This document shows, one piece after another, positions 8,513 through 49,342 of a stretch of 49,342 nt of DNA. The DNA is taken from positions 1 through 49,342 of IMG/VR virus record IMGVR_UViG_3300037084_000029; one strand, written 5' to 3'. This stretch comes from a virus. The position numbers and the translations under genes were made by a program. Numbering within the stretch: position 1 is the stretch's first letter; every line of letters starts with the position of its first letter. The notes beneath the pieces are model-generated. The model was not told where the DNA came from and did no database searches. It was given only the letters and a program-made list of their open reading frames with translations.

Positions 8513-8517
8513 GTCTC

Positions 8518-8709: not shown

Positions 8710-8748
8710 GAGTACGACAAGGGAGATTCTGATAGGAGATTGACGCAA

Positions 8749-12209: not shown

Positions 12210-12213
12210 CCTC

Positions 12214-15703: not shown

Positions 15704-15720
15704 GTAAGGAGATTGAGGAA

Positions 15721-16561: not shown

Positions 16562-16596
16562 ACGCCATGTCTGAATAAGTGGAAAGGGGTAAAATC

Positions 16597-16974: not shown

Positions 16975-17186
16975 GTGGCATTGGGTACAACCCATCCCCA
17001 GAGATTCCAGATTGGCTTTTTCGGCGATCTGTTAGATTGGGCAAGAAGTTCGACAAGCTAGACGCAGAGATACAGCGCTCTATGGCTGAATTGACAAAAA
17101 CAATTCAGGCATCCCCCGATCAGGTTGGGCTGATTGCAGACATCAACCAGTTTATAGAAGGCCGGGACAAGAAGAAAAGGTCTTAA
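16971..17186 (+). CDS. Hypothetical protein, 71 aa, last gene of the plus arm
   Basis: Starts in the ATGA overlap. Helical and charged (FDKLDAEIQRSMAELTKTIQ). It ends only 3 bp from the stop of the convergent 2886-aa gene. No clear intrinsic terminator separates the arms; the hairpin at 17202-17218 lies inside the opposite gene and lacks a T-tract. Confidence 0.5.
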   Translation: MSGIGYNPSPEIPDWLFRRSVRLGKKFDKLDAEIQRSMAELTKTIQASPDQVGLIADINQFIEGRDKKKRS

Positions 17187-17189
17187 GCC

Positions 17190-20100: not shown

Positions 20101-23100
20101 ATCCCCTTGGTGCCTTCAAGCCTCTGCTTAGTGACGCCCTTGAACCCACGCTTGTCTGACGGCTCCCCAAATGAGGGGATCACTTTCCACAGAGTCCGGT
20201 AGTGGTTCTCCAGATATTCTGGATTGACACCCACTTCTTGCAGGGAATGGTAGAGATCGTCGTCTACGCCCCTAAAGAAGTCAGCCGCCTCTTGTAACGG
20301 CGCGGATATGTCCTGTGCTTCCCTCTTCCCAAATAGGCTGCTTCGCGCTGGGAGTTGCGCCTTCTGCTTGCGCCCATGCCGGATGGCATCAACGAACCCC
20401 ACTTGCATACGGGCGGGCATCGCATCGAACAGGCTACGCCACCGATCCCCAAGCTGCTGCAAAATCCAGTTAAACTCCACCATGCTCCCGTTACGCTTCA
20501 TCACGGAGTTCAGAGCGCCGAAGGAGACGTTATGCCGTGGGTCAAATGCCTGCCGAGCCAGCTTCATCGTCTCAGCCGCACCCTGGACAGGAGGCAATTC
20601 TGCCAAGTGCGACATGACGAGCGGAGTGTACTTCTTGGCTACGTCGATAGCCTCTTCCACGTAGGGATCAAGCGCGCCCAGGCCACCTCCAAGAGTGACG
20701 CTGCCAGCGCCGGGAGGGGGAGCCGTCTGTCTGGATGCAGACTCCGGCTCCGCTGCCGCCTGCGGCGGGGCTTGCGTTTTGATTGGGCCGGTATCGGCTT
20801 TGGCAGATGGCTCAGGTTCCTTCTTCGCTGCCCCGAAAGAGTCATCAAATGCTTCCCCTGGAGCCTTCCCTGTGGGCATCTCCTGCGCCCTCTCTGCGAA
20901 CAACTCCTCTGCTTTGGCCGCATCCGCAGCATAGGACTTGGCCGCATCCGCAGCATAGGACTTAAATGCTTGGGCAATACTCTTTTGGCTGTTCCCCTTT
21001 ATGAACTCGGCTATTCTCTCGGCCTTCTCAGATACTTGTGGTCTCTCGCCAGCGCCACCGAACATATCGGCTTGGTTTTCAGCCAAGAACCCACCAGCCT
21101 TGAATCCGTGCGCCTCTTGGTATTCCTTCTCGTCGCGCTCGTGCTCAATCAGGGAGATGGCATCGCGCACGTCTTTGGTCAGGCCCCACCTAGGGACGCG
21201 CTCGACCTTCTTTAGCCAAACGACGGTACGCTCTAGCTTGTTGCGAAGAGAAGGTTCTGCTCGTTCAAATTGCTGGTTGTCTGTGAACAGATCCCCCAGT
21301 AACATCTTGGCCGTTCGGTTTTTAGCTTCCTTGGTGACGGTTCCATTCTTGTCATCTAGTAGGGCGGGACGTTCCTCTTCTGTGAAGATGCCCTCGCGGA
21401 TGAGGCGGTTGATGAGCACCGGCCCATACTTTGAACTGAGGACATCATTCAGGTTTACGTCTGGCCCCACAGATTCCAAGACGCTGGCAATGTGGCTGGC
21501 CGTCTCTGCCGTCATGCTTCTGGCGTCAGCAGTAGCCCGCTCTCCCTGCGAAAGTGCGGCAGTAGTACCCTTGTTTAGATCGGTTATGGCGCGTTGTGGC
21601 TTGACATCCGCGTCCTTCAATTCCCGAACCAATATGGGCTTCTTAATCCCTTCAATTGCTTTGGGGTCAAGCCCGAACACAGCCGCTTTTTTCACCAACA
21701 AGGCGCGATACGCAGCGGCCCCCTTGGGGTTCTGCGCGTACACGCGCTCCAGCGTCATGCGCCGGTTGTTCCCGCCTAAGACGTTACCATCCGGGTCAAT
21801 AATAGACGGGCCGTTGGTGGCCGTGGGATCATCCGTGATTAGATAATCAGGATCGAACTTTGCCCCGCTGTTGACGATAACGCGAGTTTGTGCGACGGGA
21901 TCGGTATAGTCCCGGTCGTTCAGGTGGTGGTAGTCGGCGTTTCGCTCAAAGGAGAACGGGTCGTGGCTTGGGTAGGTGTCGGAGAGTTCTCGGACGGAGT
22001 AGACGGCGGCGTAGGCTCGATCTCGTCCTGGAACACGAATCTTCGTCCCCTCACCCGCAATCGGTCGGACGCTTGGTTTACGAGTTCCTGAAACCTTTGG
22101 CCCTTCTCCAACTGCTCGGTCGTCAGATCGCTTTGGCTGCTCATCGGGCTTCTCTTCCGCTTTAGTTTGCTTCTTTTCTTCCTTGGTTTCAAGTGGTTTC
22201 TCGGCTGCTGGTGCGGGTTTATGCTCCGCCTTCTTCACCGCTGGGGGTTCGGCCTTCTTGGCCTTGGCTTCACGTTCCGCCTTTTCCCTGTCAATGTCTG
22301 CCTGATACTTCGCTATCGCCACTTTGCGGTGCAACAGCATCTCGTCTTCTAACTCAAGGGCACGGTCTCGAAGCTGCATCCCCTCGTGCGTGTCTTCTGC
22401 ATAGACGGGGTTCTTCTGTATGGCGCGGACTTCTTTCTGCAACTCCTCGTAGCGTTCGACAGACGGCTCCACGGTATTCTTCTTCGCCGCAGGCAGTTCT
22501 TTGTCTACGGCTGAGGGCGGCGGCACGGTCGCTTGCGCGGGAGGAGGCGCGGTCGCAACTTTGCGCTCTTTTGCCCACGGGCCATAAATGTAGGCGGTCT
22601 CGTCGTCGATATACTTTTGAGTGATTGGGGACTTGACTCCTTCCTGGTATCGCTCCTTCACCTTCTTAGAAGGGCCGACCTTCTCGTCGTACCATCCCCA
22701 CTCTCTCGTATCGAATGTCTGGTAGACGCTAAACTGCCCGGCCTGCGTCAGTAGGCGCTGCCCGCCTGAGTATCCCGAGACGCGGTAGCCTTCGGGAATG
22801 TCCTTGTCCCGCTGAGCGTCAACGTCCTTGAGCGTAGGGTTCTTGGGCCTGACGGTCGTGGCTCGCTCGAAGGCTTCCTGGTCCTTCTTGTCTGCCGCGA
22901 CCTTGTTCGCCTGCTTCTCGGCCTCGCGTGCTGGCTCTCCACGCCTCCAGAACTCCTTCTTGATGTCGTCCCGCTGCTTGTCCCACCACTTCATCGACGC
23001 CGCTTGCTCTGGCGAGGTGAAGACCAGATCTCTACCGGGCTGGACCTTGGGGTGCCAAGACGCAGCCTCATCGACAGCCGACTTCAGATCCTCCAGTTGT

Positions 23101-25850
23101 GTATCCGTTAGCTTCGTCAAGTCACTTGGCGCGAATGGTGTCTTGTCTCGGTAGGTGGACAGGCTCAGGTTGTGGACATCCTTTGCCCACTGTTCATAGC
23201 CCTTGTCCGTATCGCGGGATTTCGATCTAGCTGGAATCGATATGAGATCCGTGGGCTTGGCTTCCGCCTTCACGCCGATCTCTTCAAGAGCCTCCCTTAA
23301 TGCCTCTCTCTGCGCTTCAATAGTAGCGGCTGGACGCCCACTCTTGATAGCATCTCGGATTTGATCCGCAATGCGGATGGCGTCCCCGTAGGTATCGCGG
23401 AAAGAACGCTTTTGGTTGGGATCTCCAGCCCATTTCTGGAAGTCCTGTGATGCAACCAGATCTTCCGGCTTCGCGGAATCCACCTTGAAGTCTGCTGCCT
23501 TGGCTCTCGTCACGGGAGGAATATCTTTTGGAATAATCTGAGCAGGTTTTACAGACGCAGAACTTAACTCGTTGCCCTCTGTTAAGTTATCAGCCGCTAC
23601 TTCCTGCTTTTTCGCCTCATTTGAGGGAGCGTTTTGTGTAGTAGGCGGTGCTGGTGTCGCCTTCGGCGCGGCCTTCGCCGCCTGCTCTTGCTCCAGCACC
23701 TTCGCCCTGTTGCGGATGCTCTCCGCCCGCTTGTCCGTCTCTGCCGCAACCCTTCTTAGCTCTGCCGCTGCGCTGGGATCGGTCTGCTTGTCGGCCTCCG
23801 CTAATGCAGCTTCCCCTACCTGCTTGAGCTTCGCCAGTATCACTTTGGCCTTGGGCAGTTGAAGCTGCGTCAGTTCCGTGTCGGAGATGGCTTGCCCTGC
23901 CGCCCTAAGCCGCTTCATCGCAGGGAGTTCTTCAGGGTCGAGCTTCGGCGCGGGTGGCTCGGTCACGGCCTTAGGGGTGGCCACCTCGGGGGGGGCTTTA
24001 TTCGGTAAGTTGTTGCTTTCCCTAGATATAACCCCGGCTACCTTCGCGGGTGTAGATTCGGACTTAGCCGCATCAGCAGGCGGCGCTTGTCTGGATGCAG
24101 ACTCAACGGGCTTCGGCGCAGGCTTCGGCTTGAGCGGCGGCTTAATTGGCTCTGCCTTGGCCTCTGACGGCATCTCTACGGGCTTGGCCGCTTCCGCCTT
24201 GGCCGGTGGCTCCGCCGCCGCTGGTGGCGCAGCAGTGCCCTCTGCCGCACCCTGGAGCTTGCCCTTCGACATCATGCTGGTAAACGCAGCAAGGGGGATC
24301 TTCTGGTTGGGGTTCTTATTCCCCTTCGGCCCGGTGAAGTCGTATTTAACGATAGGCTTGCCGGATTCGTCGGCCTCGATGCTGGTGACAGCGTAAGCCC
24401 CGCCGTTTAAGTTCCATACCTGCCCCGGCTTGAAATCCGCCGTAGGCGCAGTAGCCCCCGCCTCTGTCTTCGGGGCAGGGGCCTCCGCGCTAGATGGCTG
24501 GATCACTTCCTTTCCGGGCTGTTGCCCTTCGGGCGTGACACGCTCAGAACCTCCTTTCTTTGACGTTACGGGCGGTTCCGTAGTGGCGGCTTCGGCGGCT
24601 GGTTTCGGCGCTTGCTCGACCGGCTCAATCGTTACGGTGTGGTCGGGAGCCTTAGACGCCACAAGGTCTTTGGCAAAGTCGGCTTGCTCTGGGGTGATGA
24701 GCCCTTCTTCGATTACCTTGCCCGTAGCATCCTTAACCGTCAGTTTTACGACAGGACCTTGCTCGGCGTCGGCATGGATATGGAGCCATCCAGAAACGGC
24801 CTTGTCGTATCCTGCATATACGCGCTTCCCTGTTTTAAGATCAATGACCTCGCGGGAGAGACGTCCGTTCTTGCCAACATCCAGGAAGCGAATCTCATGC
24901 GGTTTGCCGCCAATGGATACGGGGATGGGCTTAGCGATCTCAGGGCTCTGAGCGATAACATCGCGCATCTTCTCGATACGTTGCCCGCCTTCGGCTTCTT
25001 CCTGGAACAACTTCTCGGCAATTTCGTTGTGCGCTTCCAGCCTTGCGTCGATGATCTTCAGGCCGATGGGGATAGAGCCGGAAGCCAGCCCGGCCACTTG
25101 GCCGAAGAATCGAGCATGTTCTGGAGCAACTCCAGCCGACTCAAGCCCCTTGCGGGTAGCATATTCCGTCCCCGCGTACAGGCCAACGGCTTTGAGCGCC
25201 GTAACCGGCGCAACGGCTGCGCCCGCGATCATAAACGGAGTCGCTACCTCCAGCCCGCCAGTTATGATTTCCGTCCCAGCGGCAGAGGCCTGCTTCCTCA
25301 GTTCAGGCGTCAGTTTGTTGCCGTAGCCACCCGGCTTGTCGGGGGTGGCAAACGCTTCCGCAGGCTTGCCCAACCCCTCAACGCCAGCCACCACCCGCTG
25401 AGCCCCAGTGATCGGCATGTCGGTCATCCAAGAGACTGGCCCGCCCTCTTGGCCTGGAGGCACGCGAGGGGACTTTGCTCCCGTGCGCGGGTTTGTAAAC
25501 TGAGGGGCGCTCTTTGCTTGTTCTTCGGGAGATTGCAGCCCATACGGAACCTGCGGTTGCGGAACTCCCATCGGGATAATGGGCCGGTATGTGCCCACCA
25601 ACGGCACCCCAGGTAGCCCCGTTTTCTCTGCCCCAGGCACGGTTGAGAGCGGTCGCTTTTCTTCCCCCGGAGGGGTAACTGGCCCCATGTGCGTAACCGC
25701 AGCCCGTTCGGCCTCTGCGCTAGCGGCGGCTAGGTTCGGCTTAGGGGTAGATACAGATTTCCCACCATACTCCGCAAAGATGTCTGTCTTGGCATCTGGC
25801 GGAGCAGTTACAAGAGCACCCCCATACTCAGCAAACACATCGCTAGGCAT
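17190..25850 (-). CDS. Giant polyvalent virion/ejection protein with DdrB-like ParB domain
   Basis: 2886 aa, last gene of the minus arm. In order: an N-terminal duplicated motif (DVFAEYGG, DIFAEYGG); a hydrophobic Ala/Gly segment near residues 205-240; long Ala/Pro/Lys-rich linkers (about 420-800); a DdrB-like ParB-superfamily domain at about 1285-1575 (YPSHDPFSFERNADYHHLND, then NGPSIIDPDGNVLGGNNRRM); the repeat SYAADAAK twice near 1635; long helical domains; and a probable membrane helix near 2572-2593. Large polyvalent proteins of this type are injected with phage DNA and can protect it, as P1 DarB/DdrB do. Its place after the 204- and 599-aa proteins suggests the T7 gp16 position. Domain functions beyond ParB are unknown. 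Confidence 0.75.
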   Translation of the reverse strand: MPSDVFAEYGGALVTAPPDAKTDIFAEYGGKSVSTPKPNLAAASAEAERAAVTHMGPVTPPGEEKRPLSTVPGAEKTGLPGVPLVGTYRPIIPMGVPQPQVPYGLQSPEEQAKSAPQFTNPRTGAKSPRVPPGQEGGPVSWMTDMPITGAQRVVAGVEGLGKPAEAFATPDKPGGYGNKLTPELRKQASAAGTEIITGGLEVATPFMIAGAAVAPVTALKAVGLYAGTEYATRKGLESAGVAPEHARFFGQVAGLASGSIPIGLKIIDARLEAHNEIAEKLFQEEAEGGQRIEKMRDVIAQSPEIAKPIPVSIGGKPHEIRFLDVGKNGRLSREVIDLKTGKRVYAGYDKAVSGWLHIHADAEQGPVVKLTVKDATGKVIEEGLITPEQADFAKDLVASKAPDHTVTIEPVEQAPKPAAEAATTEPPVTSKKGGSERVTPEGQQPGKEVIQPSSAEAPAPKTEAGATAPTADFKPGQVWNLNGGAYAVTSIEADESGKPIVKYDFTGPKGNKNPNQKIPLAAFTSMMSKGKLQGAAEGTAAPPAAAEPPAKAEAAKPVEMPSEAKAEPIKPPLKPKPAPKPVESASRQAPPADAAKSESTPAKVAGVISRESNNLPNKAPPEVATPKAVTEPPAPKLDPEELPAMKRLRAAGQAISDTELTQLQLPKAKVILAKLKQVGEAALAEADKQTDPSAAAELRRVAAETDKRAESIRNRAKVLEQEQAAKAAPKATPAPPTTQNAPSNEAKKQEVAADNLTEGNELSSASVKPAQIIPKDIPPVTRAKAADFKVDSAKPEDLVASQDFQKWAGDPNQKRSFRDTYGDAIRIADQIRDAIKSGRPAATIEAQREALREALEEIGVKAEAKPTDLISIPARSKSRDTDKGYEQWAKDVHNLSLSTYRDKTPFAPSDLTKLTDTQLEDLKSAVDEAASWHPKVQPGRDLVFTSPEQAASMKWWDKQRDDIKKEFWRRGEPAREAEKQANKVAADKKDQEAFERATTVRPKNPTLKDVDAQRDKDIPEGYRVSGYSGGQRLLTQAGQFSVYQTFDTREWGWYDEKVGPSKKVKERYQEGVKSPITQKYIDDETAYIYGPWAKERKVATAPPPAQATVPPPSAVDKELPAAKKNTVEPSVERYEELQKEVRAIQKNPVYAEDTHEGMQLRDRALELEDEMLLHRKVAIAKYQADIDREKAEREAKAKKAEPPAVKKAEHKPAPAAEKPLETKEEKKQTKAEEKPDEQPKRSDDRAVGEGPKVSGTRKPSVRPIAGEGTKIRVPGRDRAYAAVYSVRELSDTYPSHDPFSFERNADYHHLNDRDYTDPVAQTRVIVNSGAKFDPDYLITDDPTATNGPSIIDPDGNVLGGNNRRMTLERVYAQNPKGAAAYRALLVKKAAVFGLDPKAIEGIKKPILVRELKDADVKPQRAITDLNKGTTAALSQGERATADARSMTAETASHIASVLESVGPDVNLNDVLSSKYGPVLINRLIREGIFTEEERPALLDDKNGTVTKEAKNRTAKMLLGDLFTDNQQFERAEPSLRNKLERTVVWLKKVERVPRWGLTKDVRDAISLIEHERDEKEYQEAHGFKAGGFLAENQADMFGGAGERPQVSEKAERIAEFIKGNSQKSIAQAFKSYAADAAKSYAADAAKAEELFAERAQEMPTGKAPGEAFDDSFGAAKKEPEPSAKADTGPIKTQAPPQAAAEPESASRQTAPPPGAGSVTLGGGLGALDPYVEEAIDVAKKYTPLVMSHLAELPPVQGAAETMKLARQAFDPRHNVSFGALNSVMKRNGSMVEFNWILQQLGDRWRSLFDAMPARMQVGFVDAIRHGRKQKAQLPARSSLFGKREAQDISAPLQEAADFFRGVDDDLYHSLQEVGVNPEYLENHYRTLWKVIPSFGEPSDKRGFKGVTKQRLEGTKGMLKKHVFEDMSEGLRWDFSALTEEEVHAAMQKAGIRPDGYKVEQGVDNLEVTPFSDKAIDALNKLEKSGAEVVKRGGTPTYWNAMTMFQAHYADALRFVTTRRMWKDGIESGRIRFVKRGMKPLDGFKRIDDAIAKVNIPVKTSRSIDDATQRVKDGVASDMNEAMQQIIDEHRQRGSVITATQVMAPVGEWYVEEGLARLLNNLQSRDRIREYALGRGLSRIKNGYTGIELGVSPFHFVFESIEAMGSMFALAFREAYLGVGKMTFERNRPGSTSLGKRLMWQSLKDLTGALPSATPGFRFGKVSAAPLVHEFSIEQLGASAKLLYGQAGKPYLETEQLKDAIAGYNKSLEFMRPSNPRYNDLISQRASAEAQLAAAQGDYNEALKKFASGKVGQRFLERYPDAAPLIHDYFQAGGKPHMDERFRLRATENFRTAYKNAVADHRELAAAGNALLAINEAMLAPLFETFIPNLKLGIFLKEYSFAKVENERKLERVENLRKGIDRIQYEIAQLNDERRRTPASHPPGVPVDPARMAKIQGIEDRLRAKTEQLNKTQIEHDAMQAQRGYSLEQIARETNDFVEDRFGEMNFDNLFWNNTIKTCLQLAFRSVTWKLGNARATGKGVRGGWRTMRDFYKALPGLASGTGEAPALEAHFSWLFTTMMLAVTVSAILSKMMGHQSFKDTFRKLAEGDWTEAVYFHSDEVGGRNSFASYARDWVHLARSIGGYISSSYAGDIGRFMDLLRGGIGKGGKDFYGTEVYHPADPWYEQAKDIAGHMIPMPFAAQSFFKSREQGQPLSSQVLGLLGFTKAPTDITDSPAVRAAKEAAAETVSVGARTKEQFEKTKDKSQLMNKLKRGEDVYDQAMDLVGKGKLTVKDLEDVAKQYRTPPLTRAIQRITDPDKLLEVWEKATNEEKAEIQSLLLNKLGSVVRNRPGQWTPRIEQRVAKDEVETWRPPQQIRTAPPPGVEGY
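20729..20742 (-). repeat. GTCTNNATCCAGAC element, copy 6
   Basis: Minus-strand GTCTGCATCCAGAC inside the giant gene, encoding the ESASRQ part of a linker. Same 14 bases as copies 4 and 7. Confidence 0.7.
20914..20961 (-). repeat. 24-bp perfect tandem duplication
   Basis: Two exact 24-bp units, 20914-20937 and 20938-20961, keep the frame and encode SYAADAAK twice in a linker of the giant protein. Exact identity suggests a recent slippage event. Confidence 0.85.
24089..24102 (-). repeat. GTCTNNATCCAGAC element, copy 7
   Basis: Minus-strand GTCTGCATCCAGAC followed by AAG, again in an SASRQ-coding linker of the giant gene. The protein motif SASRQ recurs with copy 6, so either the DNA element or the linker was duplicated. 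Confidence 0.7.
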
Positions 25851-39147: not shown

Positions 39148-41634
39148 CTAGTAGTTGCTATAGCCGAGAGGCATGGTCACGGTCGTGCAAATCTGTCCGG
39201 CGGCCAAGGTCTGCGACGCACCGGAGAGATTGTAGGCCACGAAGGTGATGGCATTGGGGGTGTATACGTACCCGTAGAACAGCACGCCGCCCGCGTTCAG
39301 GGAGAAACTGGGTGGCGCAATCGTGGACCCCATTTGCGCTCCGGGGACAGTCTCCTGGACAGATGCCGTGGCACCGGCGGCGATTGTACCGGGGGTCCAG
39401 GCGACGCAGTAGGGGAACGAAGGAGGGACGCCCTGGGAAAGCGCCCAGACGGCCTTGGTCTGATCGAATGCCGGCACGTAGTAGGGTACGGCGGTGGCCT
39501 GGACCCCGCTGTCTTCATTCACGGCCAGCGCCGTGGCGGAGCCTACGTTGCCGATGGAGTAGGCCACATTATTTATGACAATTGTCATCCCGTTAAACCA
39601 TGGGCCACTTGTTACAAACGGCGAGCCGGAAGCCCAGGTGATTATGTTGTGGTTGGTAGTCACCGTACCTTGGGCTAATACCGTATTCGTCGGGTTCTCC
39701 ATATTGTGGTTGAAGTTGTTGTCCGGCGTGACAAAGACATGAGTCGGAAGCGTGCCGCTAGGGCTGGCCTGGATGCAGAATCCGTAACCTTGAGTCCCCA
39801 GAGCTAGGTTGGAATTTGTATCAAGGGACACGTTCCCAGTGAAGGTGCAGTAGCTGCACTGGTACGTGTCATTCCCGTAGCGCGCCGATATACCGCACCC
39901 TGCTCCCGGAGCGCTAGAGCCGTTGTCGATTGTTATGTTGTTGGCGATCAGGGTATTGGGGCCGCCCGCATCGATGCCGTCTCCCGACATTCCGCTTACG
40001 AAGTTCTCGGTGATCCTATCGTAAGACGCCCAGTCCTCAATCGCGTTGGGACGGGTTGCATTAGTGTCGATCCCGGTCGAGCTAACGAGCATGTTTCTGG
40101 AGATTAGGTTGTACCCGCACAGGGCGCTTTCTTCTGTGGTGATCCCAGCGCCATATCCCCACCCGCTGATGTCGTTGCCCTCCACATGCGCCCCGTAGGT
40201 GTTGATGTCCATACCGGTATGGACGAGGGTGTTATTTGTGACACGTACTCCGTTCATCGCGTAAGGGCCGCCGGTGCTGATGTTGAACCCTTCGTTCTGG
40301 TTCCCGCTGGCCGCCGTGGTCTCGATGTAGTTGTGGTCCAGGGTGATAAATCCGGCCCCGCCGTAGAAGGCGACCACCAGCGTGGGAAAGACGTTGACGA
40401 ATCGGCAGTCCCTGATCGTGACGTAGGAGGCATTGACCATTCCGATCACTTGGTAAAAGAGCCCCACGCTGAAGTATGTGACGGCGGAGGATTGCACCCC
40501 AGCGGTCGCGGTGAGCACCAGGTGAGAGCTGTCTGTCACGGAGGCGATTGTATAGTAAACGTAGTTGATGACGAACGGCAGCCCCGCCCACGTCCCGTCT
40601 GTATAGAACGGGGTGCCCGTTACGAGAGTGACCGCCGTTCCGTTTGTCGTTACCGTGCCATAGCCGCTGTTAATCGGCGCGTTCGCCCCGTCGAACGTCA
40701 GATCGCGGATGGTGATGTTATGCGTCCCGTTAGAGCTGAACCATTCGCCATTGAATGCCGCGCTCTTGAGCTTGATGACCGCCCCGGTGTTGGATTCGCC
40801 CGCCATTTCCACGCAGCTCGGAATCACCGTGCCCGTGAGACTGCCCGCCGTCACGCTCATCATGTACGTGCCGTGAGGGAAGTAAACCAGCCCACAACTA
40901 GTGCCAGCCGCCGTCAGCGCCGCCTGGATAGCCGCGGTATCGTCGGTCACGCCATCTCCTTTGGCCCCGAAGTCCTTAACGCTAATTGTTTCTCTGAGCT
41001 TGGCGTCTACCGTACTAGCGACGGCCCCTGCCCCTGTTTGTGTAAAGCTGATGTCGTCGGCATACATTTGACGGAAAGAAGGCAAACCGTTCGCATTTTC
41101 TGGAGCAGCGTAAACATAGTGTTCGGCCAGCGACCCAAAGAGGTTTGCAATGTCAGAGACAACCACGCATCGCGCCTCTCCTGCCCCGCTGCGGTAGGGA
41201 ATGCAGTTTAGGCCAGGGTCCGCTATGGCGCTGATAGAGGAAGCCGAAGAGGTGATGAAGTAGTCCTTGGAGCAGGAGAGCGTTGAAGACGTGCTACCTG
41301 AAAGCGTGTTGAGGCGCACCCAATTGTGATACCCGTTGCCGACGCCAATTGGGACAAAGGACGTGTTGGTGATCTGGCTTGTGGGGAATGGCGTCCACGG
41401 CCCAGTCCTGCTCACGTCGCTGTACTCCAACTGGATCGTATAGGCCCCTACGTTGCTGTTCACGTAGTAACTGAAGTAGTTGCAGCCCATAGCCGCCGTA
41501 GAGCGGTTGTCGAACACCTGAGAGGCGCTTGTGACGTTGTAGACCCTAACCACTTGGAGAGGCTGGGGGATGGTCTGAGCTTTCGCCGTGAAGAGAGAGA
41601 AAGCAATCAAGACAGGGAAAGGAAAGTGTTTCAT
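39148..41634 (-). CDS. Pectate-lyase-fold tail spike with N-terminal signal peptide
   Basis: 828 aa from ATG 41634 (GGAG upstream; the frame to 41688 is shadow). Residues 1-19 form a signal peptide, MKHFPFPVLIAFSLFTAKA, then Q. From about residue 220 VKDFGAKGDGVTDDTAAIQA starts a right-handed beta-helix (Pectate_lyase_3 type), with many Asn-rich turns (NEGFNISTGG, NDISGWGYGAG). Such spikes bind and often cut host surface glycans. A cleavable signal peptide is unusual on a virion protein, which normally assembles in the cytoplasm. Function as a spike is the usual reading; a secreted depolymerase is the alternative. Confidence 0.75.
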   Translation of the reverse strand: MKHFPFPVLIAFSLFTAKAQTIPQPLQVVRVYNVTSASQVFDNRSTAAMGCNYFSYYVNSNVGAYTIQLEYSDVSRTGPWTPFPTSQITNTSFVPIGVGNGYHNWVRLNTLSGSTSSTLSCSKDYFITSSASSISAIADPGLNCIPYRSGAGEARCVVVSDIANLFGSLAEHYVYAAPENANGLPSFRQMYADDISFTQTGAGAVASTVDAKLRETISVKDFGAKGDGVTDDTAAIQAALTAAGTSCGLVYFPHGTYMMSVTAGSLTGTVIPSCVEMAGESNTGAVIKLKSAAFNGEWFSSNGTHNITIRDLTFDGANAPINSGYGTVTTNGTAVTLVTGTPFYTDGTWAGLPFVINYVYYTIASVTDSSHLVLTATAGVQSSAVTYFSVGLFYQVIGMVNASYVTIRDCRFVNVFPTLVVAFYGGAGFITLDHNYIETTAASGNQNEGFNISTGGPYAMNGVRVTNNTLVHTGMDINTYGAHVEGNDISGWGYGAGITTEESALCGYNLISRNMLVSSTGIDTNATRPNAIEDWASYDRITENFVSGMSGDGIDAGGPNTLIANNITIDNGSSAPGAGCGISARYGNDTYQCSYCTFTGNVSLDTNSNLALGTQGYGFCIQASPSGTLPTHVFVTPDNNFNHNMENPTNTVLAQGTVTTNHNIITWASGSPFVTSGPWFNGMTIVINNVAYSIGNVGSATALAVNEDSGVQATAVPYYVPAFDQTKAVWALSQGVPPSFPYCVAWTPGTIAAGATASVQETVPGAQMGSTIAPPSFSLNAGGVLFYGYVYTPNAITFVAYNLSGASQTLAAGQICTTVTMPLGYSNY

Positions 41635-41635
41635 A

Positions 41636-42805
41636 TTAGTAATCTCCAGCCGCCGCTTCCCACGAGTGCGATTGCTCCCAGTTCGCACCCATTCCCATTC
41701 CTCCCCAAGTTTGAGCGAAATTCCAAGTAAAGGCCTTCTGGTATGTGCTCTCTTCGGAAGTCATAAGTTCGATGACGGCCTGCTCGAACCGAGATTGGTA
41801 CATATTCGCCGTTTCCAGGCTGAAGAACGCATCCTTCATGTCTGGAGGGCGAGGGCAAGGCGTAGCAAAGGCATCTGCCAGAGCCCCATATATTAGGGCA
41901 TTGGGGTTGATTCCCGCAGGAGGAGTATCGTCTGGGAGCCTCATCCCCTTCCAACGGGCATGGTAAAGGTAAGAAAGCTGGTACGGGATTGACGGTGGAG
42001 GATAAATCTCGTACATTTGCTGGCCGTTGAGGTTCGGCCCCAAATTGGCAATACAGTTGGGAGAATCAGTCGCCGTTCGGTTCGGGTCGTACAGGTTGAG
42101 TTCTTCCTGAGATACCTGCAACCGGAGCGCGATTTGCTGGAAATTATCCACAACGACAACCAGTTCTTTCACGTCCCCCGCAAAAGGCGTATAGGCTAGC
42201 AAAATCTGATAGGCCATCCCCGCAGCGCCAACCTGTCCCCACGGATTGTCTAGATACAGACTCGTGGGGCTAGTTACCGCCTGCACGGTGAAAATTGGGT
42301 TAATTGAATTGACACGCAACTGAAGATTGACGAGAGAGCTTGCTGTCGCTGTGAAGTTCGCCTCGTGCGGGAATTGAAAGGCGCACAGGATGCGCCCTGC
42401 CATCATGTCCAACACGGCTACAGTCTCAGGGTAAGGGCCTGCGGAGTCCACGTAGAGCAGGCTGCTGGGCGTGATGCCGACAGTGCTGTCGGGAGTGACC
42501 CAAACGGTTCTAGCTGCCCGTAGTGGCTCCTGGATGTGGGTATTAACTGCGTCATCTACAGGCCAATTTGTGCCTGTTCCCGCGACGAGCGTAGACCCAG
42601 TTGTAACCGCAATCGTCCCAATAGAGTATGCCTGCGGGATGGATAGAAGGTTACGCTTCAGTAGACTAGACCAATCCGGCTTACGGTCGAGTATTTGCCG
42701 CAACCTCTCGTTAAGGAAGTCTACGGCCAGAGTCCGGTCCAGGCCGATGCGCTGCTTGCACACGCGGTTCTGCATCGACTGTAGGGTCTCTGTAAATTGG
42801 GCCAT
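41636..42805 (-). CDS. Adaptor-like virion protein, 389 aa
   Basis: ATG behind AAAGAGAGAG. N-terminal helices (SMQNRVCKQRIGLDRTLAVD, LNERLRQILDRKPDW) resemble those of phage head-tail adaptors, followed by a beta insertion (IGTIAVTTGSTLVAGTGTNW) and C-terminal helices (DAFFSLETANMYQSRFEQAV). It lacks a signal peptide, unlike the genes on both sides. Probably a head-to-tail or neck component. Confidence 0.5.
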   Translation of the reverse strand: MAQFTETLQSMQNRVCKQRIGLDRTLAVDFLNERLRQILDRKPDWSSLLKRNLLSIPQAYSIGTIAVTTGSTLVAGTGTNWPVDDAVNTHIQEPLRAARTVWVTPDSTVGITPSSLLYVDSAGPYPETVAVLDMMAGRILCAFQFPHEANFTATASSLVNLQLRVNSINPIFTVQAVTSPTSLYLDNPWGQVGAAGMAYQILLAYTPFAGDVKELVVVVDNFQQIALRLQVSQEELNLYDPNRTATDSPNCIANLGPNLNGQQMYEIYPPPSIPYQLSYLYHARWKGMRLPDDTPPAGINPNALIYGALADAFATPCPRPPDMKDAFFSLETANMYQSRFEQAVIELMTSEESTYQKAFTWNFAQTWGGMGMGANWEQSHSWEAAAGDY

Positions 42806-42812
42806 ACTCTCT

Positions 42813-42827
42813 CTTTATTTGGAATCG
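42813..42827 (-). repeat. 15-bp leader repeat CGATTCCAAATAAAG, copy A
   Basis: Minus-strand CGATTCCAAATAAAG, ending 7 bases before the ATG of the adaptor-like gene. An identical 15-mer spans the end of the GNAT gene at 28315-28329. Confidence 0.7.
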
Positions 42828-42859
42828 AGCCCCACAGCAAAGCATTTTTCGCCTTCAGT

Positions 42860-43096
42860 TTACCCTAAGGCGATCTGGTTAATTCTACTCCACCAATTCC
42901 CCGGTTGAGGGTCTGGACCAGTCCAGTCGGGATCGTGCCTGACCCGCCACGTGAATCGTTCCTCCTTCGAGGCAAAGCAGCGCCCAGAGCCGTCGTAGCG
43001 CCGGAGTTGGCCCAGCGCCTGCCGAAACACCGTCTCAATGGCGCGTGCGTCTCCCATGTAGGCTCGAACGAGAGTGCTGGTGGCAGAGACTGGCAT
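42860..43096 (-). CDS. Hypothetical protein, 78 aa
   Basis: ATG near the stop of the CxxC protein. Helical N-half (RAIETVFRQALGQLRRYDGS) and a Trp-rich polar C-half (WTGPDPQPGNWWSRINQIAL). An overlapping frame (42865-43107) is Arg/Pro-rich and looks like a shadow. No family recognised. Confidence 0.45.
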   Translation of the reverse strand: MPVSATSTLVRAYMGDARAIETVFRQALGQLRRYDGSGRCFASKEERFTWRVRHDPDWTGPDPQPGNWWSRINQIALG

Positions 43097-43103
43097 GGGA
43101 GGC

Positions 43104-43361
43104 TCACGATGTCGCTACGTCCTGCCAGAAGGCGGCATTGCAGGCGAGGCAGCGGGTGACCCTACTTGCAGACTCGCAGAGGCCCACCGTAAGTCCGCCG
43201 TCCGTGCTGGTGCAATACCCTGCCGCGAGCCGCTGGGCGGTCGTGTAGGGCGGCGCCTGCGTTTTACACACGGGGCACTGGCCATTCACCGGAGCGGCCG
43301 GCGCGGTTTGCGCCAACGCGGCAATCGGGAGCAGGCCAAGCAGAAAACTGCATCGCGTCAT
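43104..43361 (-). CDS. Small secreted CxxC protein, 85 aa
   Basis: ATG 43361 supported by AAGGAGA; the longer frame to 43451 is shadow. Residues 1-17 are a signal peptide (MTRCSFLLGLLPIAALA, then Q). The mature part has CPVCKTQAP, CTSTDGG, LCESASR and CLACNAAFW, two CxxC pairs that could bind metal or form disulfides outside the cytoplasm. GC-rich relative to the rest of the arm. Function unknown. Confidence 0.6.
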   Translation of the reverse strand: MTRCSFLLGLLPIAALAQTAPAAPVNGQCPVCKTQAPPYTTAQRLAAGYCTSTDGGLTVGLCESASRVTRCLACNAAFWQDVATS

Positions 43362-43615
43362 TCTGTCTCCTTCTCGAAATAGTCCGCGTGCGCCGCCCGG
43401 TCCCAAAGCGTGAGCGAACTCTCCGGCGATGGCCGCGGCCCGATGCCGCAACCGAACCAGCGCGCGAGCGCCAGCTCCTGCGGCGTCGCCTGGAGGCGGT
43501 AGGTCTTGAGCCGCGGCAGCTCCACGTCCCAGCGCCCGCGTCCCCGCCGCACCGCGTGCGGCCTGACGGTATCGAGCCGGAGGCGCACCAGGGCGAGAGT
43601 CTGGGCTTGAGTCAT
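43358..43615 (-). CDS. Hypothetical protein, 85 aa
   Basis: ATG 43615 chosen; it overlaps the stop of a 15-codon micro-ORF (GTG, MITNLKIMGFLALTI) that has AAGGAAGGAG upstream, suggesting coupled initiation. An alternative GTG at 43684 gives 108 aa. Arg-rich, with LARWFGCGIGPRPSPESSLT near the C-terminus. Overlaps the next gene by 4 bases. Confidence 0.45.
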   Translation of the reverse strand: MTQAQTLALVRLRLDTVRPHAVRRGRGRWDVELPRLKTYRLQATPQELALARWFGCGIGPRPSPESSLTLWDRAAHADYFEKETE

Positions 43616-43707
43616 ATGGTCAGTGCCAAGAACCCCATTATTTTCAGATTCGTTATCACTTCTCGAACTCCTTCCTTTCTTCACTTCTCAGGCACACATT
43701 CAAATCC

Positions 43708-44877
43708 TCAAAAAATCGGCGTCATACTAACCGGTGCCCCCCCGCCACCGCCGCAACTACCGGAGCACGGCGCCAGCCCCGAGACGGCGGCAAAAGTGGA
43801 AGGCGCATGGCCGTTGTTATACTCAGCGGCGATCCAATCGGCAGAACGCAGATTGTTCGTGAAATACATATTGTCGTACCCTCCATTTCCGGCAGAGACG
43901 ATAGAAAAATTGCCGTCCACTTTGAAGGCCGACGTACCCGGAGAGCCAATGGTCGGCGTGAACGTGCCCGCGCTCGCGCCGTCAAAATAAAACGTACTCG
44001 TCCCACCGTTCGTGAACGTCATGGCTACATGATGCCAGGCATTCTCTGGCACGACAGAGGTTCCCATGAAGATGGGATTGGTCCCGCCAGATCCCGCCAT
44101 TGCCGCTATGTAGCCGTTAAGCGGAGAGCACCCGAGCAGGAATCCGTTGGTTAGATAGTAGTCACTTCCCACGCCAGCGAACATAGTCAGCCCGGCGCTT
44201 CCGCCAGAGCAGTCACCCGTATGTGGGTTCACCCACAGTGCGATGGTCCCCGTCGTAACATTGTAGGCAGACGAAGCGGGGAAAGACGTCGCCGAATAAT
44301 CATAAGCGTAACCGCCCACCACGCCACCACTCGACGACCCGTAGTCACAAGACGAGGTGCCATCATTCGCGGCAGAAGTGAAGTCGCGATAGGTGACGTT
44401 GCCAGCACACCCTCCCGTCATGCCCGGAAACGGCGACATGAGAATGGTGGAGGAGTCGAACTCCGACCCTACCGCGCCGCCTTGGAATGCGCTGATGGCC
44501 GTGTTGCCCCAGAAGGCATAGATGACCGTCGTGCCGATGTGCGAGGTGGTCTTCTTGACGTGTGCCCAGACGACGCCGCCGGTCGATGAGCCGTCGTATG
44601 ACTCAATGCCCCAATTCAGCACAACAGATCCGCCGGAGTCCGATGTGAATATCAGGTCTGCCGGAACGGTCTGGCCGCTGCGGCTGACGGTATGTTGGAT
44701 CTGGCCGCCATTACCTGCCAACTTTAGGGACGCGTGGCTCAGATAGACGATGTTGGTGCGATCGGTCAGGTCGGAACTGCCCGTTGTCTGAGCCAGCGTG
44801 ATCGTCGCTTTGTAGGTATACGCGCCCCACGCCGGAGCGGAGAGGGCAAGGAGGAGAAGAGGAAGAAGGCGTCTCAT
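43708..44877 (-). CDS. Secreted DUF2341/LamG-like protein, 389 aa
   Basis: Signal peptide MRRLLPLLLLALSAPAWG, then AY. The N-terminal half (YTYKATITLAQTTGSSDLTD; VVWAHVKKTTSHIGTTVIYA; FWGNTA) matches the DUF2341 pattern. The second half (GTIALWVNPHTGDC; NAWHHVAMTFTNGGTSTFYF; DGASAGTF) matches a LamG/concanavalin-like jelly roll. Such domains bind carbohydrate on surface proteins. The C-terminus is short and Gly/Ser/Cys-rich, with no sorting signal. Either an exported adhesin or a virion fibre head. Confidence 0.7.
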   Translation of the reverse strand: MRRLLPLLLLALSAPAWGAYTYKATITLAQTTGSSDLTDRTNIVYLSHASLKLAGNGGQIQHTVSRSGQTVPADLIFTSDSGGSVVLNWGIESYDGSSTGGVVWAHVKKTTSHIGTTVIYAFWGNTAISAFQGGAVGSEFDSSTILMSPFPGMTGGCAGNVTYRDFTSAANDGTSSCDYGSSSGGVVGGYAYDYSATSFPASSAYNVTTGTIALWVNPHTGDCSGGSAGLTMFAGVGSDYYLTNGFLLGCSPLNGYIAAMAGSGGTNPIFMGTSVVPENAWHHVAMTFTNGGTSTFYFDGASAGTFTPTIGSPGTSAFKVDGNFSIVSAGNGGYDNMYFTNNLRSADWIAAEYNNGHAPSTFAAVSGLAPCSGSCGGGGGAPVSMTPIF

Positions 44878-44879
44878 AG

Positions 44880-45395
44880 TTACTGCACCAGCACCGCGTC
44901 GGACGCCGCCTGATTGGTCTGCGTGGTGGCCGCTTGCGCCTTGTACGTCGCGTAGTTCCCGAGCATCATCTGATGCGCGATGTTCTGCACCGCCTGGAGG
45001 AGCACCGCCTTCCCCACCGCCGTCAGGCTGGCATACTTCAAGACTGCGATCTGCACGCCGCTGAGGTGCGCCGCCGCCGCCGTGGCGAAGTAGCCGCGCC
45101 CACTGGCAGCCACCGTCAAGGTATTGCCGCTACAGGTCGATGTCGAGACCGCCTCAGCGTCGATCAGCACAGTCACGCCCGCCGCCACATTGGTGCAGTT
45201 GGCGACTGTGATGGTGGTATCCCCGGCCCCGATGGCCGCGGTGGCCGTGGCCGCGCCCGCCATCTGCACCTGCGTTGTGGCCCAGGCGTTGAGGTTCGTC
45301 ACGGCGTCCGCGCTCAATGTGCCGGACAGGCTGAAGCCGCTTTGCGCGACCGCCAGCCCGGCGAACAAGATCAGAGAGAAAAGCAGTTTTTTCAT
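44880..45395 (-). CDS. Secreted small protein, 171 aa
   Basis: ATG overlaps the stop of the 898-aa fibre gene. Residues 1-17 are a signal peptide (MKKLLFSLILFAGLAVA, then Q). Then an Ala/Thr/Val-rich region (GDTTITVANCTNVAAGVTVL) typical of a small beta module, and helical sequence at the end (VGKAVLLQAVQNIAHQMMLG). GC-rich. Function unknown. Confidence 0.55.
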   Translation of the reverse strand: MKKLLFSLILFAGLAVAQSGFSLSGTLSADAVTNLNAWATTQVQMAGAATATAAIGAGDTTITVANCTNVAAGVTVLIDAEAVSTSTCSGNTLTVAASGRGYFATAAAAHLSGVQIAVLKYASLTAVGKAVLLQAVQNIAHQMMLGNYATYKAQAATTQTNQAASDAVLVQ

Positions 45396-48088
45396 TGGTC
45401 ACACTCCACTGTCAAATTCACGAAGGTTGCCGTTCCGCCAATCGCCTTGATGTTGACGGCGAACAGATCGTTGGCCGACACGGAAGTCGTCCAGCCGGTC
45501 AGGGTGGACGAGTGCACCGAGGTGCCGGTGGTGATGGCCGGGACGGCCGAAGCGGTGATGGTGTTAGAGACGGTCGGCACTGCCGAACCCGTCGCCACCT
45601 TCCACACGTCCACGGTCGCGGTGTCGGCCGGCGAGAGGCTGATCGTCCATGCGCTGATGGTGCAGGCGAAGGGGACATTCCCGTAGGCCGTCAGGCCGGT
45701 CGTCAGCGCAGACGAAGAGTTGAAACTGTAGCCGAAGGCGCGCGCGTTCGTCGTTTGGACGAGTTGGCCGGAGCCGTTCGAGCCCAGAAAGTTCTTGCTG
45801 GTTGGGACTGCTGCCCCGTTCACCTTGCCAACGGTCATAGCCAGACCGCTGTTCGTGACGTCCCCCGTGAAGGTGGGCATCTGTCCCGATGCGAGCGTGG
45901 TGCCGGTAGTCATCAGCGCGGAAGATGCTGGGATGCTCGTGCCATTGACCGAGGTGGTAGAGGAGAGCGCGGCGGGCACTTGCGAGGCCGTCAAGCCGGT
46001 CGCATTCGAGACATTGAGGGTCGTCGGCGTGCCGAGGGACGCGCCGCTGGGAATCGTCACAGTCCCCGTGAAGGTCGGAGAGGCGAGCGGAGCTGCCCCG
46101 AGAGTGTTGTACGAGAGCGTGATTGCCGCCGATCCATTGAACGTCGAACCCGAGGCCGCGCCCGCGCCGCCGTTGTTGAGGGTGAGGGCATTCAACACGC
46201 TGCCCGACGATCCGGTCGTGTTCTGGTTGAGCGTCGGGATCGCCGCCGCCGCGATAGTGCCGCCCGCGCCCGTCTCGACAATCGAGTTCGCGCCGTTCGA
46301 TTGCGTGACTGGCAGGCCCAACGTCAGCGCCGGGTACGTGCCCCACAGAGGCACATAGCCCGATGTCGCGGAGCCAGGGCCCGTGATCGTGCCGCCTCCA
46401 CCCGTTGCCGCCGTGCAGCCCGTTACGTTGCCATTCGCAGTGATCCCCAGCGGATAGTTGCCGGCCGCACAGGTGGTCGGCGTGGATGCCAACGCCGTCG
46501 CCGTCGACGCATTACCCGTGATGCTGCCCGCGGGGAGTACGTAATCGGTCCCCGCCGTCGCCGCGACAAGTTGGCCGCTACTGTTGGTCTTGGTGATAGA
46601 CCCTGCCGCCGGCAAGACCGCCCCGCCAATTTGCGAAACACTTGGATTAGGATAGGTGCCACCAAGATCGCCGCCCGCCGTTCCATTCGGCGGTAGGGTC
46701 GTAGGGATCGCCGCCCATGCCGCATTGCCGCTCCCGTCCGTCGTCAGTGCATACCCATTGGTTCCTGGCGTGTTGGGAAGTGTGAGTGTCCACGTCCCCG
46801 CAGCGGCCTGTGCCGTGACTGTCACCGCCCCCGAAGTGGCGCCGCCGAGTTGTACAGATCCGCTCCCCGCTCCGCCGCTCTTGAACCCGGCTGGATTGTT
46901 GAGAATGTTCGACCCATCCACATAGGCCGCCGACACGCTCGCGTCCGCCCCGCCGTTGCCGACCAGTACGTAAGTGTTCGTCAGCGCCCCTGCTGAATGC
47001 GTGACTGTCCCGCTGTTGGCCGCCGTACAGCCCGTAGCGTTGCCATTCGCCAGGATGCCCAGTGGATAGTTCCCCGCCGAGCAGGCCGTAGGAAGCGCGG
47101 CAAGGGCCGTGGCCGTGCCCGCGTTGCCGGTGATGCTACCCGAAGGGGTGACGTAGTCCGTGCCCGCCACGGCTGCCGTGGGTGCGCCGCTGACCATTTT
47201 GACGATGGAGCCGTTCGCGGGCCACGAGAACGCGCCCATGTAGTCCGTGCCGGCGGTGGCCGTGCTGAAGCTCGCCACGCTGCCCGCGACGGTCGTCTTG
47301 AGCAGGCCCGTAGTCAGGAGGCCAAGGTTGACGGCGTTGGCGGGTTCATTGCTCGCCTGGCTGACCAGATAGTAGCCGGCTGAGTTGGCCCCGCCGCCGC
47401 CAGTGCCGCAGTCAGACCCAGTACCGGTGAGGACACCCGCATTGTTGACGTGAGTGCACTGGACGCCGCCGCCCGTGATCGGCGTTGTTACCGTACCTGT
47501 GAACGTCGGGCTGGCCGTGGGTGCGCGGCTGGTGTCGCTGGGGTGCACATGGTCGCCGCGGGCGAAGTTGCCGCTGGACCCGGCTGACGCGCTGCCGTCC
47601 ATGGCCGGGCTCGAGGAGTAGGCCGCGGGGATCGTCGGCGCGCCGGAGGTGATTTGGCTGTAATCCAACGTAACGCGATCGCTGCCCGCGTTGCCATGCG
47701 TCGCGGCATGCAGCGCGGGCGTGAAGCTCGCTGGCACTCCCGACAGCGAAGCCCACGGCCAGCTCCCGAGTGACAACAGATCCGAGATGGAAGGGTTCGT
47801 GAAGCTGGCAATTTGGCCGGCCACGACAATCTTCAACAGCCCCGTGGAGAGCAGTCCCAGATTCACGGCATTGGCGGGCGCGTTGGCGGCACCGGCGACA
47901 ACGAACAACCCGAGTGGGTTGGCACCACTGCCGCCCACGACGTATGGGACATACGCTCCCGCTCCGGACACTTGCGGCGTGCAATTCGTCGTGACGGTCG
48001 CGGAGCATGGGGGCCGAACTGACGCAGGTCTGGTGCCTTGCGCCAGACAGCCCAGCGCCGTTAAGAGAAACAAAATTGCTGTTCGCAT
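45392..48088 (-). CDS. Tail-fibre-like repeat protein with N-terminal signal peptide, 898 aa
   Basis: Residues 1-16 look like a signal peptide (MRTAILFLLTALGCLA, then Q). The rest is a fibre: Gly/Thr/Ala/Asn-rich, with repeats such as NAVNLGLLSTGLLK and NAVNLGLLTTGLLK, SPTFTGTV twice, and AGTDYV...GSITGNA...AGNYPLGI twice (about 47.0-47.17 and 46.4-46.55 kb), all typical of phage tail fibres. The C-terminal ~120 residues (FGYSFNSSSALTTGLTAYGN onward) form a separate receptor-type domain. GC is clearly higher than in the nozzle/tail genes. A signal peptide on a fibre is odd; an exported adhesin is the alternative. Confidence 0.75.
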   Translation of the reverse strand: MRTAILFLLTALGCLAQGTRPASVRPPCSATVTTNCTPQVSGAGAYVPYVVGGSGANPLGLFVVAGAANAPANAVNLGLLSTGLLKIVVAGQIASFTNPSISDLLSLGSWPWASLSGVPASFTPALHAATHGNAGSDRVTLDYSQITSGAPTIPAAYSSSPAMDGSASAGSSGNFARGDHVHPSDTSRAPTASPTFTGTVTTPITGGGVQCTHVNNAGVLTGTGSDCGTGGGGANSAGYYLVSQASNEPANAVNLGLLTTGLLKTTVAGSVASFSTATAGTDYMGAFSWPANGSIVKMVSGAPTAAVAGTDYVTPSGSITGNAGTATALAALPTACSAGNYPLGILANGNATGCTAANSGTVTHSAGALTNTYVLVGNGGADASVSAAYVDGSNILNNPAGFKSGGAGSGSVQLGGATSGAVTVTAQAAAGTWTLTLPNTPGTNGYALTTDGSGNAAWAAIPTTLPPNGTAGGDLGGTYPNPSVSQIGGAVLPAAGSITKTNSSGQLVAATAGTDYVLPAGSITGNASTATALASTPTTCAAGNYPLGITANGNVTGCTAATGGGGTITGPGSATSGYVPLWGTYPALTLGLPVTQSNGANSIVETGAGGTIAAAAIPTLNQNTTGSSGSVLNALTLNNGGAGAASGSTFNGSAAITLSYNTLGAAPLASPTFTGTVTIPSGASLGTPTTLNVSNATGLTASQVPAALSSTTSVNGTSIPASSALMTTGTTLASGQMPTFTGDVTNSGLAMTVGKVNGAAVPTSKNFLGSNGSGQLVQTTNARAFGYSFNSSSALTTGLTAYGNVPFACTISAWTISLSPADTATVDVWKVATGSAVPTVSNTITASAVPAITTGTSVHSSTLTGWTTSVSANDLFAVNIKAIGGTATFVNLTVECDQ

Positions 48089-48643: not shown

Positions 48644-49120
48644 TTAACCAATCTGCCAGTATGCAGTCCCATCCCCAATCAAACGAGCATATTGGCCCGC
48701 AGTCAGGGTAAGGGAAGCCACACCGTTGACGTTCCCAGAAACCGGAGTAACCGTCGTGGAGGACGTGAGACTTCTGATAGCAACCTCTTGCCCAGCAGGC
48801 CAAGTGGTCGCTGCCGGAAGAGTGATTGTAACAGCGCCAGCAAGGATAGCCTTAGCAGACGTGGAAGCTGTGTAAGCCGCTCCAGCCGTGTATAGCTGAT
48901 ACGACCGGGCCAATACGGAGAAGGTCGGGGTGACTCCGCTAGCAATGGTGGTGACGGCCCACAAAAGAGGATCGCCCGCCGCCATCGTTGGGTTCGTGTT
49001 GACAACCCAATCTCCGACATTGAAGAAGTCAGCGGTCGAGGGCAGATCCGCTGCCCCCGCCGTGACGAAATAGACCGCCTGTTGGTTGATGTTCCAAACT
49101 TTTGCTTGCTGTAAGGCCAT
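48644..49120 (-). CDS. Beta-rich decoration/fibre-tip-like protein, 158 aa
   Basis: ATG with CGGAG upstream. The C-terminal part, VTITLPAATTWPAGQEVAIR and PVSGNVNGVASLTLTAG, with YARLIGDGTAYWQI at the end, resembles end domains of many phage fibres and decoration proteins. It is related to the partial gene at 49154 (see findings). Function inferred from pattern only. Confidence 0.55.
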   Translation of the reverse strand: MALQQAKVWNINQQAVYFVTAGAADLPSTADFFNVGDWVVNTNPTMAAGDPLLWAVTTIASGVTPTFSVLARSYQLYTAGAAYTASTSAKAILAGAVTITLPAATTWPAGQEVAIRSLTSSTTVTPVSGNVNGVASLTLTAGQYARLIGDGTAYWQIG

Positions 49121-49153: not shown

Positions 49154-49342
49154 TTACTTATGGGTTAAGTGGTAGTTCGTTCCGTCCGAAAGCACCCCAG
49201 CGTCAGTCGCCGTAATGGTGACGGTAGCGGTGCCGTTGATGTTGCCGGAAGCGGGAGCGATGGTGAAGGTCACGCCAGCATCGTTAAGCAGCGTAACGAA
49301 CTCGATACCGACCGGGTAGGCCGAAGGGGCCAGCAGTGTGAC
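49154..49342 (-). CDS. Partial beta-rich virion protein, 5' end beyond the window
   Basis: Open from the window edge to TAA (49154-49156); at least 62 aa. The visible part, VTLLAPSAYPVGIEFVTLLN, PASGNINGTATVTITATDAG and LSDGTNYHLTHK, matches the pattern of the neighbouring 48644 C-terminus, so the two are probably paralogues. The start codon lies beyond the right edge. Confidence 0.65.
   Translation of the reverse strand, partial: VTLLAPSAYPVGIEFVTLLNDAGVTFTIAPASGNINGTATVTITATDAGVLSDGTNYHLTHK

Follow-up and report, generated by a model that had tools for sequence, protein, structure and literature searches.

The window analysed here, a 49,342-nucleotide stretch of viral DNA (IMG/VR record IMGVR_UViG_3300037084_000029, positions 1 to 49,342), carries a block of genes whose products begin with Sec signal peptides. 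Judged from its sequence, this block is probably a late virion-operon cassette of glycan-binding or glycan-cleaving proteins of spike and fibre type that the host Sec machinery would export. Signal-peptide fibres are not peculiar to this contig; cultured phages of Acidobacteriota with podo-, sipho- and myophage morphology show the pattern too. The first-pass annotation had read the block as pointing to one of three things: surface proteins that are exported, display on the cell surface, or assembly of fibres beyond the inner membrane. The export half of this interpretation is well supported by the match to the host preference for Gln at +1, by paired cysteines and by recurrence in other phages, while the sequence does not choose among the three destinations.

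Signal peptides in the virion operon

Inspection of the N-termini bore out the claim that five genes in this region encode signal peptides (Table 1). Each has the features of a Sec/SPase I substrate, namely a charged n-region, a hydrophobic h-region and an AxA-type site at about residue 15-30. Gln directly follows the predicted cleavage site in four of them, as had also been noted (CLA/Q in the fibre, AVA/Q in the 44880 protein, ALA/Q in the CxxC protein and AKA/Q in the spike), with the LamG protein (AWG/A) as the exception. A SignalP-type check with an in-house predictor, which never uses the +1 residue, recovered three of the five calls: the 43104, 43708 and 44880 proteins pass the strict threshold of 5.4, the fibre scores 5.15 and the spike is missed because of its Lys at -2. 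The spike signal peptide was accepted on visual inspection and because a relaxed pattern picked up the same signal peptide in the metagenomic relative L016. The predictor is conservative on E. coli and T7. Since only 0-0.3% of shuffled N-termini pass and no T7 gene does, five signal peptides in one operon of about 9 kb are far beyond chance.

Two start codons of the longest-ORF reading were moved. The spike starts at ATG 41634, one base past the stop of the upstream gene, the listed GTG 41688 being 18 codons too far upstream. The CxxC protein starts at ATG 43361, which overlaps the preceding stop as ATGA; a TTG-extended ORF to 43451 masks its signal peptide.

Table 1. Features of the window discussed in the text. 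A slash marks the predicted signal-peptidase cleavage site.
Feature	Coordinates	Strand	Details
PEP-CTERM protein, 202 aa	3984..4592	+	Signal peptide and C-terminal PEP motif, TM and basic tail; PF07589 21.4 bits (cut-off 20.7)
Virion protein, 1342 aa	31599..35627	-	Homologue of Tunturi_2 ORF32 (24%, E=1.7e-26); one link to an Acidobacteriota phage
Pectate-lyase-type spike, 828 aa	39148..41634	-	14 Cys in mature part
Pectate-lyase/rhamnogalacturonase-like spike segment	40732..40986	-	PF12708, 1e-18
Constant N-terminal module of mature spike, ~139 aa	41149..41577	-	4 Cys; near-identical in L016, whose distal domain is unrelated
Spike signal peptide	41578..41634	-	MKHFPFPVLIAFSLFTAKA/QTIP; same in L016
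Virion-region protein, 389 aa	41636..42805	-	No signal peptide; directly upstream of spike; kept in relatives down to 36%
CxxC protein, 85 aa	43104..43361	-	Signal peptide 43311-43361, MTRCSFLLGLLPIAALA/QTAP (ALA/Q)
ORF in block, 108 aa	43358..43684	-	No signal peptide; ATGA-coupled to CxxC gene; no family match (Pfam, PHROG)
LamG/concanavalin-like lectin protein, 389 aa	43708..44877	-	Weak DUF2341; signal peptide 44824-44877, MRRLLPLLLLALSAPAWG/AYTY (APAWG/A), without +1 Gln
Laminin_G_3 domain, residues 198-349 of the 43708 protein	43831..44286	-	E=2e-12
Protein of 171 aa, no assigned family	44880..45395	-	Signal peptide 45345-45395, MKKLLFSLILFAGLAVA/QSGF (AVA/Q); ATGA overlap with fibre gene
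Fibre-like protein, 898 aa	45392..48088	-	Signal peptide 48041-48088, MRTAILFLLTALGCLA/QGTR; repeats with paired Cys

The spike and LamG labels proposed for the block proteins were also upheld. PF12708 scores 68.4 bits in the pectate-lyase spike (cut-off 27) and Laminin_G_3 scores 48 bits in the LamG protein (cut-off 27.6). The designation of the 45392 protein as a fibre has its basis in its repeats and in a C-terminal match to phrog_35197 (residues 790-896, E=2e-14), a domain common to relatives; its mature part contains 10 Cys. The mature CxxC protein has 68 aa and 6 Cys, arranged as CxxC...C...C...CxxC, and the protein is also found in the contig L020. The 44880 protein matches phrog_7578, a family listed as unknown (E=0.002), and tblastn against phages returned no match to it. 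AF2 models of this protein (pLDDT 39) and of the spike N-terminal module (pLDDT 42) are too low in confidence to interpret. A genome scan with the LamG protein pointed to no host, its matches being limited to short LamG segments in Verrucomicrobiota, Bacteroidota, Alteromonadaceae and Planctomycetaceae. Just upstream of the block, 48644-49120 and 49154-49342 (minus strand) encode small tandem fibre-like paralogues that lack a signal peptide and have common NGTAYWQIG/DGTNYHLTHK-type ends.

Phage context and probable host

The window matches part of a 96 kb contig at 99.98% identity, on which terminase, portal and major head protein genes lie upstream of the window. In gene order, the block has the head protein gene before it and lysozyme and tail genes after it. 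The portal and the major head protein show distant homology to those of Tunturi_2 (E=1e-25 and E=3e-8, respectively); Tunturi_1/2 are podophages of Tunturiibacter, a member of Acidobacteriota (PMC11924767). Taken together, the distant homologies of the portal, the head protein and the 1342-aa protein to Tunturi_1/2, and the presence of a PEP-CTERM gene, indicate that this soil phage probably infects an acidobacterium.

The PEP-CTERM gene is the sixth signal-peptide gene of the window and lies outside the block. Its product had no match in 50,697 phage records, and with it the phage may draw on the exosortase sorting pathway of its host. A radical-SAM protein (4596-5168) is encoded directly after it. 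At 10378-14382 (plus strand), genes for a TPR/glycosyltransferase-9-like protein, a group 1 glycosyltransferase and a methyltransferase lie close together. Judging by these predicted functions, the genes might serve modification of the surface glycan by the phage, which would complement the putatively exported glycan-active proteins.

Signal-peptide fibres in relatives and cultured phages

Five metagenomic relatives (L117, L118, L016, L122 and G010) all carry signal-peptide fibre or enzyme genes, with differing contents. Between the window fibre and its L117 counterpart, the signal peptide (60% over 38 aa) and the C-terminus (38%) are kept and the middle is replaced. L117 also encodes a homologue of the LamG protein with a signal peptide (35% over 141 aa; LamG E=2e-13). 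In the L016 spike, the signal peptide and about 139 aa are near-identical to the window, and the distal domain is swapped. L016 has an extra signal-peptide fibre gene (7406-8791) between the lysozyme gene and the homologue of gene 35863; over its C-terminal 124 aa, the product of this gene matches the C-terminus of the window fibre at 60% identity. In L118, the spike slot is occupied by a 1080-aa signal-peptide protein (15675-18917) with two Ig (He_PIG) domains, which appears polysaccharide-lyase-like by eye. L130 was considered as a relative without the block and was rejected, as its contig G010 has signal-peptide proteins upstream of the portal.

Among cultured isolates, Tunturi 1, 2, 4 and 5 (PMC11924767) resemble the window in that large fibre or virion proteins with signal peptides are encoded in blocks, which follow the head protein in 1, 2 and 5. 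In Tunturi_1/2, the genes for head and tail proteins are followed by ORF12, 13, 14, 16 and 17, all five with signal peptides and four of them with Gln at +1. In the siphophage Tunturi_4, signal peptides are found on ORF113 and ORF114, at the tail genes. In the jumbo myophage Tunturi_5 they are found on ORF337, 338, 341 and 342, which are annotated as tail fiber or virion structural proteins and directly follow the genes for head and tail proteins; ORF337 and ORF341 contain tail-fibre repeat segments after the signal peptide (phrog_16641 and phrog_26758). ORF342 of Tunturi_5 (L211:22889-26449), annotated as a tail fiber, combines a signal peptide with LamG and a GDSL esterase, and is a candidate exported carbohydrate esterase. 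While Tunturi 1/2 have distant core homology to the window, the fibre sequences of Tunturi 1/2/4/5 are mostly unrelated to it, and Tunturi_2 ORF17 used as a query matched no viral contigs. Among the Tunturi phages, the isolate paper recognises relatedness solely between 1 and 2 (PMC11924767).

The podophage Tunturi_3 shares its host strain with Tunturi_1/2 but lacks signal-peptide fibres of this kind, indicating that export is not obligatory. Seven control phages, four of enterobacteria (T7, P22, N4 and lambda) and three of Bacteroidota (crAss001, phi38:1 and B40-8), whose hosts also follow the rule of Gln at +1 (the Q-rule), contained no signal-peptide fibres; what they yielded was small lysis, membrane or lipoprotein candidates and one 405-aa TM-like match.

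Gln at +1 and a probable host signal-peptidase preference

In the window and related phages, 20 of 27 signal-peptide proteins have Gln at +1. Predicted signal peptides of the acidobacterium Granulicella show the same arrangement, an AxA-type site and then Gln, in 53 of 73 cases (73%), in a sample of 750 kb from two plasmids of one species (Granulicella tundricola; L038, L049-L068, L166-L180). The controls, which came from the genomes matched in the LamG-protein scan (gamma, Planctomycetes and Verrucomicrobia samples), have Gln at +1 in 13/60 (22%; p=4.5e-9 against Granulicella). A Bacteroidota genome, in which the Q-rule is known (PMC5837995), gave 16/36. Apart from the phage question, the counts from these two plasmids of one species suggest that the Q-rule operates in Acidobacteriota. 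A search for a plant-type glutaminyl cyclase (PF05096) on the two Granulicella plasmids found none, a result that is uninformative with plasmids only. If the rule does extend to Acidobacteriota, a dominant soil phylum, Gln at +1 would be usable as a host clue for soil phages.

Cysteine content and parity

In the window, Cys makes up 1.59% of the signal-peptide proteins and 0.41% of the remaining virion proteins (p=7e-9). In the Tunturi phages the corresponding values are 2.09% and 0.40% (p=3e-14), and overall the enrichment over other virion proteins is about 4-5-fold. The number of Cys in the mature part is even in 24 of the 27 signal-peptide proteins (p=2.5e-5); these proteins are not fully independent, three being homologues of window proteins, and the excess of even numbers persists without those three. 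Among non-signal virion proteins, the Cys number is even in 12 and odd in 13, and host and control-phage proteins show no excess of even numbers. Eight signal-peptide proteins have one Cys inside the signal peptide itself, and its removal leaves an even number in seven. Enrichment together with parity is the pattern expected of disulfide-paired, cleaved proteins, and we infer that the block proteins belong to this class.

The idea that host secreted proteins are Cys-rich in general was rejected, because the Granulicella secretome is Cys-poor (0.56%), so that high Cys is no general export mark there and is specific to the phage proteins. The 2886-aa protein encoded at 17190-25850 (minus strand), which has a ddrB-ParB domain and is of the polyvalent internal-protein type, contains a single Cys, in contrast to the block.

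Probable export and possible destinations of the block proteins

The match to the host at +1, the enrichment of Cys and its even parity make export and cleavage of the block proteins likely. Gene direction and ATGA couplings imply that the block would be expressed together with the virion genes. Its products would then be exported by host Sec, and SPase I would cut at the AxA site and expose Gln according to the rule of the host. By analogy with Bacteroidetes, the exposed Gln may be capped as pyroglutamate. The mature Cys-paired proteins, as their Cys content and parity suggest, would form disulfides while folding on the far side of the inner membrane.

Textbooks place tail fibres in the cytoplasm, and we know of no route by which a folded periplasmic fibre reaches a virion assembled in the cytoplasm. 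Given export, we see close to an even chance that the fibres join the particle at or after lysis through a constant N-terminal module such as that of the spike, and a chance somewhat below even that they act as surface-displayed or free enzymes and lectins, trimming or masking host glycan; both destinations, or neither, account for the rest. In its complete form, the model in which Acidobacteriota phages use Sec to export receptor-binding spikes and fibres, with disulfides and host-type N-terminal processing acquired outside the inner membrane and with docking only at or after lysis, is possible, although on balance doubtful. Under this model, the assembly of a tailed phage would end outside the cytoplasm, since its fibres would be docked only at or after lysis.

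A serious contender, though not a probable one, is that the proteins are exported and never become virion parts. In that case, lectins, polysaccharide lyases and esterases that are secreted or kept at the surface could thin the host's layer of glycan, hide receptors from superinfecting phages or release progeny from debris. The contents of the block vary as in a secreted-enzyme cassette (LamG, LamG with GDSL in Tunturi_5 ORF342, an Ig protein in the L118 spike slot), no docking mechanism for exported fibres is known to us, and the non-signal 1342-aa protein and the small fibre-like ORFs could provide the receptor binder. However, canonical tail-fibre repeats follow the signal peptide in Tunturi_5 ORF337 and ORF341. 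The genes also belong to the virion operon, and in Tunturi 1, 2 and 5 they come directly after those for the head proteins. Moreover, Tunturi_1/2 need a receptor binder, yet a large fibre lacking a signal peptide was not observed in either. The spike keeps its signal peptide and constant module of about 139 aa while its distal domain is replaced. This arrangement resembles that of receptor-binding proteins built on an invariant attachment module, and it favours docking over a purely secreted role. Tunturi 1, 2, 4 and 5 are in culture, so the export question is directly testable; the main text of the isolate paper contains no mass spectrometry, SDS-PAGE or signal-peptide analysis (PMC11924767).

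At least part of the block would be surface-anchored if the fibre were a lipoprotein, cleaved by SPase II at LG/C14. We regard this as unlikely. The TALGC sequence, conserved in L117, fits a broad lipobox pattern; judged against the lipobox [LVI][ASTVI][GAS]C, the ALGC of the fibre matches the broad pattern only, and the other four proteins have no lipobox Cys. Ala at -3 and Leu at -2 are poor for a lipobox, and the CLA/Q site for SPase I lies two residues further on. In addition, the L016 fibre encoded at 7406, which has the same C-terminal domain, keeps Gln at +1 without a lipobox (SLCG/Q).

It is also quite unlikely that the N-terminal hydrophobic segment is non-working, a relic or an internal packing element of proteins that stay in the cytoplasm and enter the virion by the usual assembly. 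Tail fibres do normally fold in the cytoplasm, but a non-working segment would not account for the strong match to the Acidobacteriota sample at +1, nor for the Cys enrichment and a parity that improves once the signal peptide is removed. Furthermore, between L117 and the window fibre the signal peptide is kept though most of the protein is replaced.

GC content of the block

The observation that the block is richer in GC than the tail genes was confirmed, with values of 0.59-0.67 over 43-48 kb compared to 0.51-0.56 over 28-39 kb. At four-fold sites, the five signal-peptide genes, spike included, have 77.2% GC and the other virion-strand genes 60.4% (p=5e-4). Because the difference extends to four-fold sites, it is not just a matter of amino-acid composition. 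A GC shift as a general mark of such genes was rejected, since the signal-peptide genes of the Tunturi phages are not GC-richer. Host DNA fused to the phage by misassembly would explain four-fold-site GC above that of neighbouring genes, but it is highly improbable: the same block occurs at 99-100% identity in other contigs from different samples, repeated identical contigs that rule out a chimera; its genes overlap by ATGA, run in the same direction as the virion genes and are interleaved with them; the spike has the same features outside the GC-rich core; and relatives carry divergent versions of the block.

Comparison with known systems

No earlier report of exported tail fibres in Acidobacteriota phages was found in the open-access literature, and a title and abstract search of that literature, with most subscription journals outside it, found no paper on Sec-exported tail fibres in general (PMC3556154 and PMC3338817 do not describe them). 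If correct, the recurrence of a Sec-exported, Cys-paired class of proteins among podo-, sipho- and myophages that infect one phylum would point either to a different route for completing tailed particles or to a shared arsenal of secreted proteins directed at the host surface.

Individual elements of the block have counterparts elsewhere. Pectate-lyase-type tail spikes (phrog_18522, phrog_2234) have the spike domain and the DFGAKGDG(V)TDD entry motif of the window spike, which differs from them in its signal peptide and Cys-containing N-terminal module. Tailed-phage proteins exported by Sec are known among secreted endolysins, such as Lys44 of fOg44, and SAR endolysins (PMC6116005); these are a precedent for Sec export but are lysis enzymes, whereas the window encodes fibres and spikes.

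In the Q-rule of Bacteroidetes, SPase I substrates mostly carry Gln at +1 (PMC5837995, PMC10653852), as do most of those in the window and in Granulicella. The rule has been reported as typical of Bacteroidetes, in a 2018 text without mention of Acidobacteria, and no report of it in Acidobacteriota was found in the open-access literature, most subscription journals being outside the search; the phylum concerned here is Acidobacteriota. The closest precedent is provided by phages of Porphyromonas gingivalis (proposed Nixviridae), which carry genes with Q-rule signal peptides and have been proposed to employ the Sec system of the host and to alter its outer surface (PMC10367356). Like the window, these phages encode proteins with host-type signal peptides that expose Gln. 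Their genes are of unknown function and their hosts are Bacteroidetes, whereas the window encodes large spike, fibre and lectin proteins with paired Cys, in a virion operon and in another phylum.
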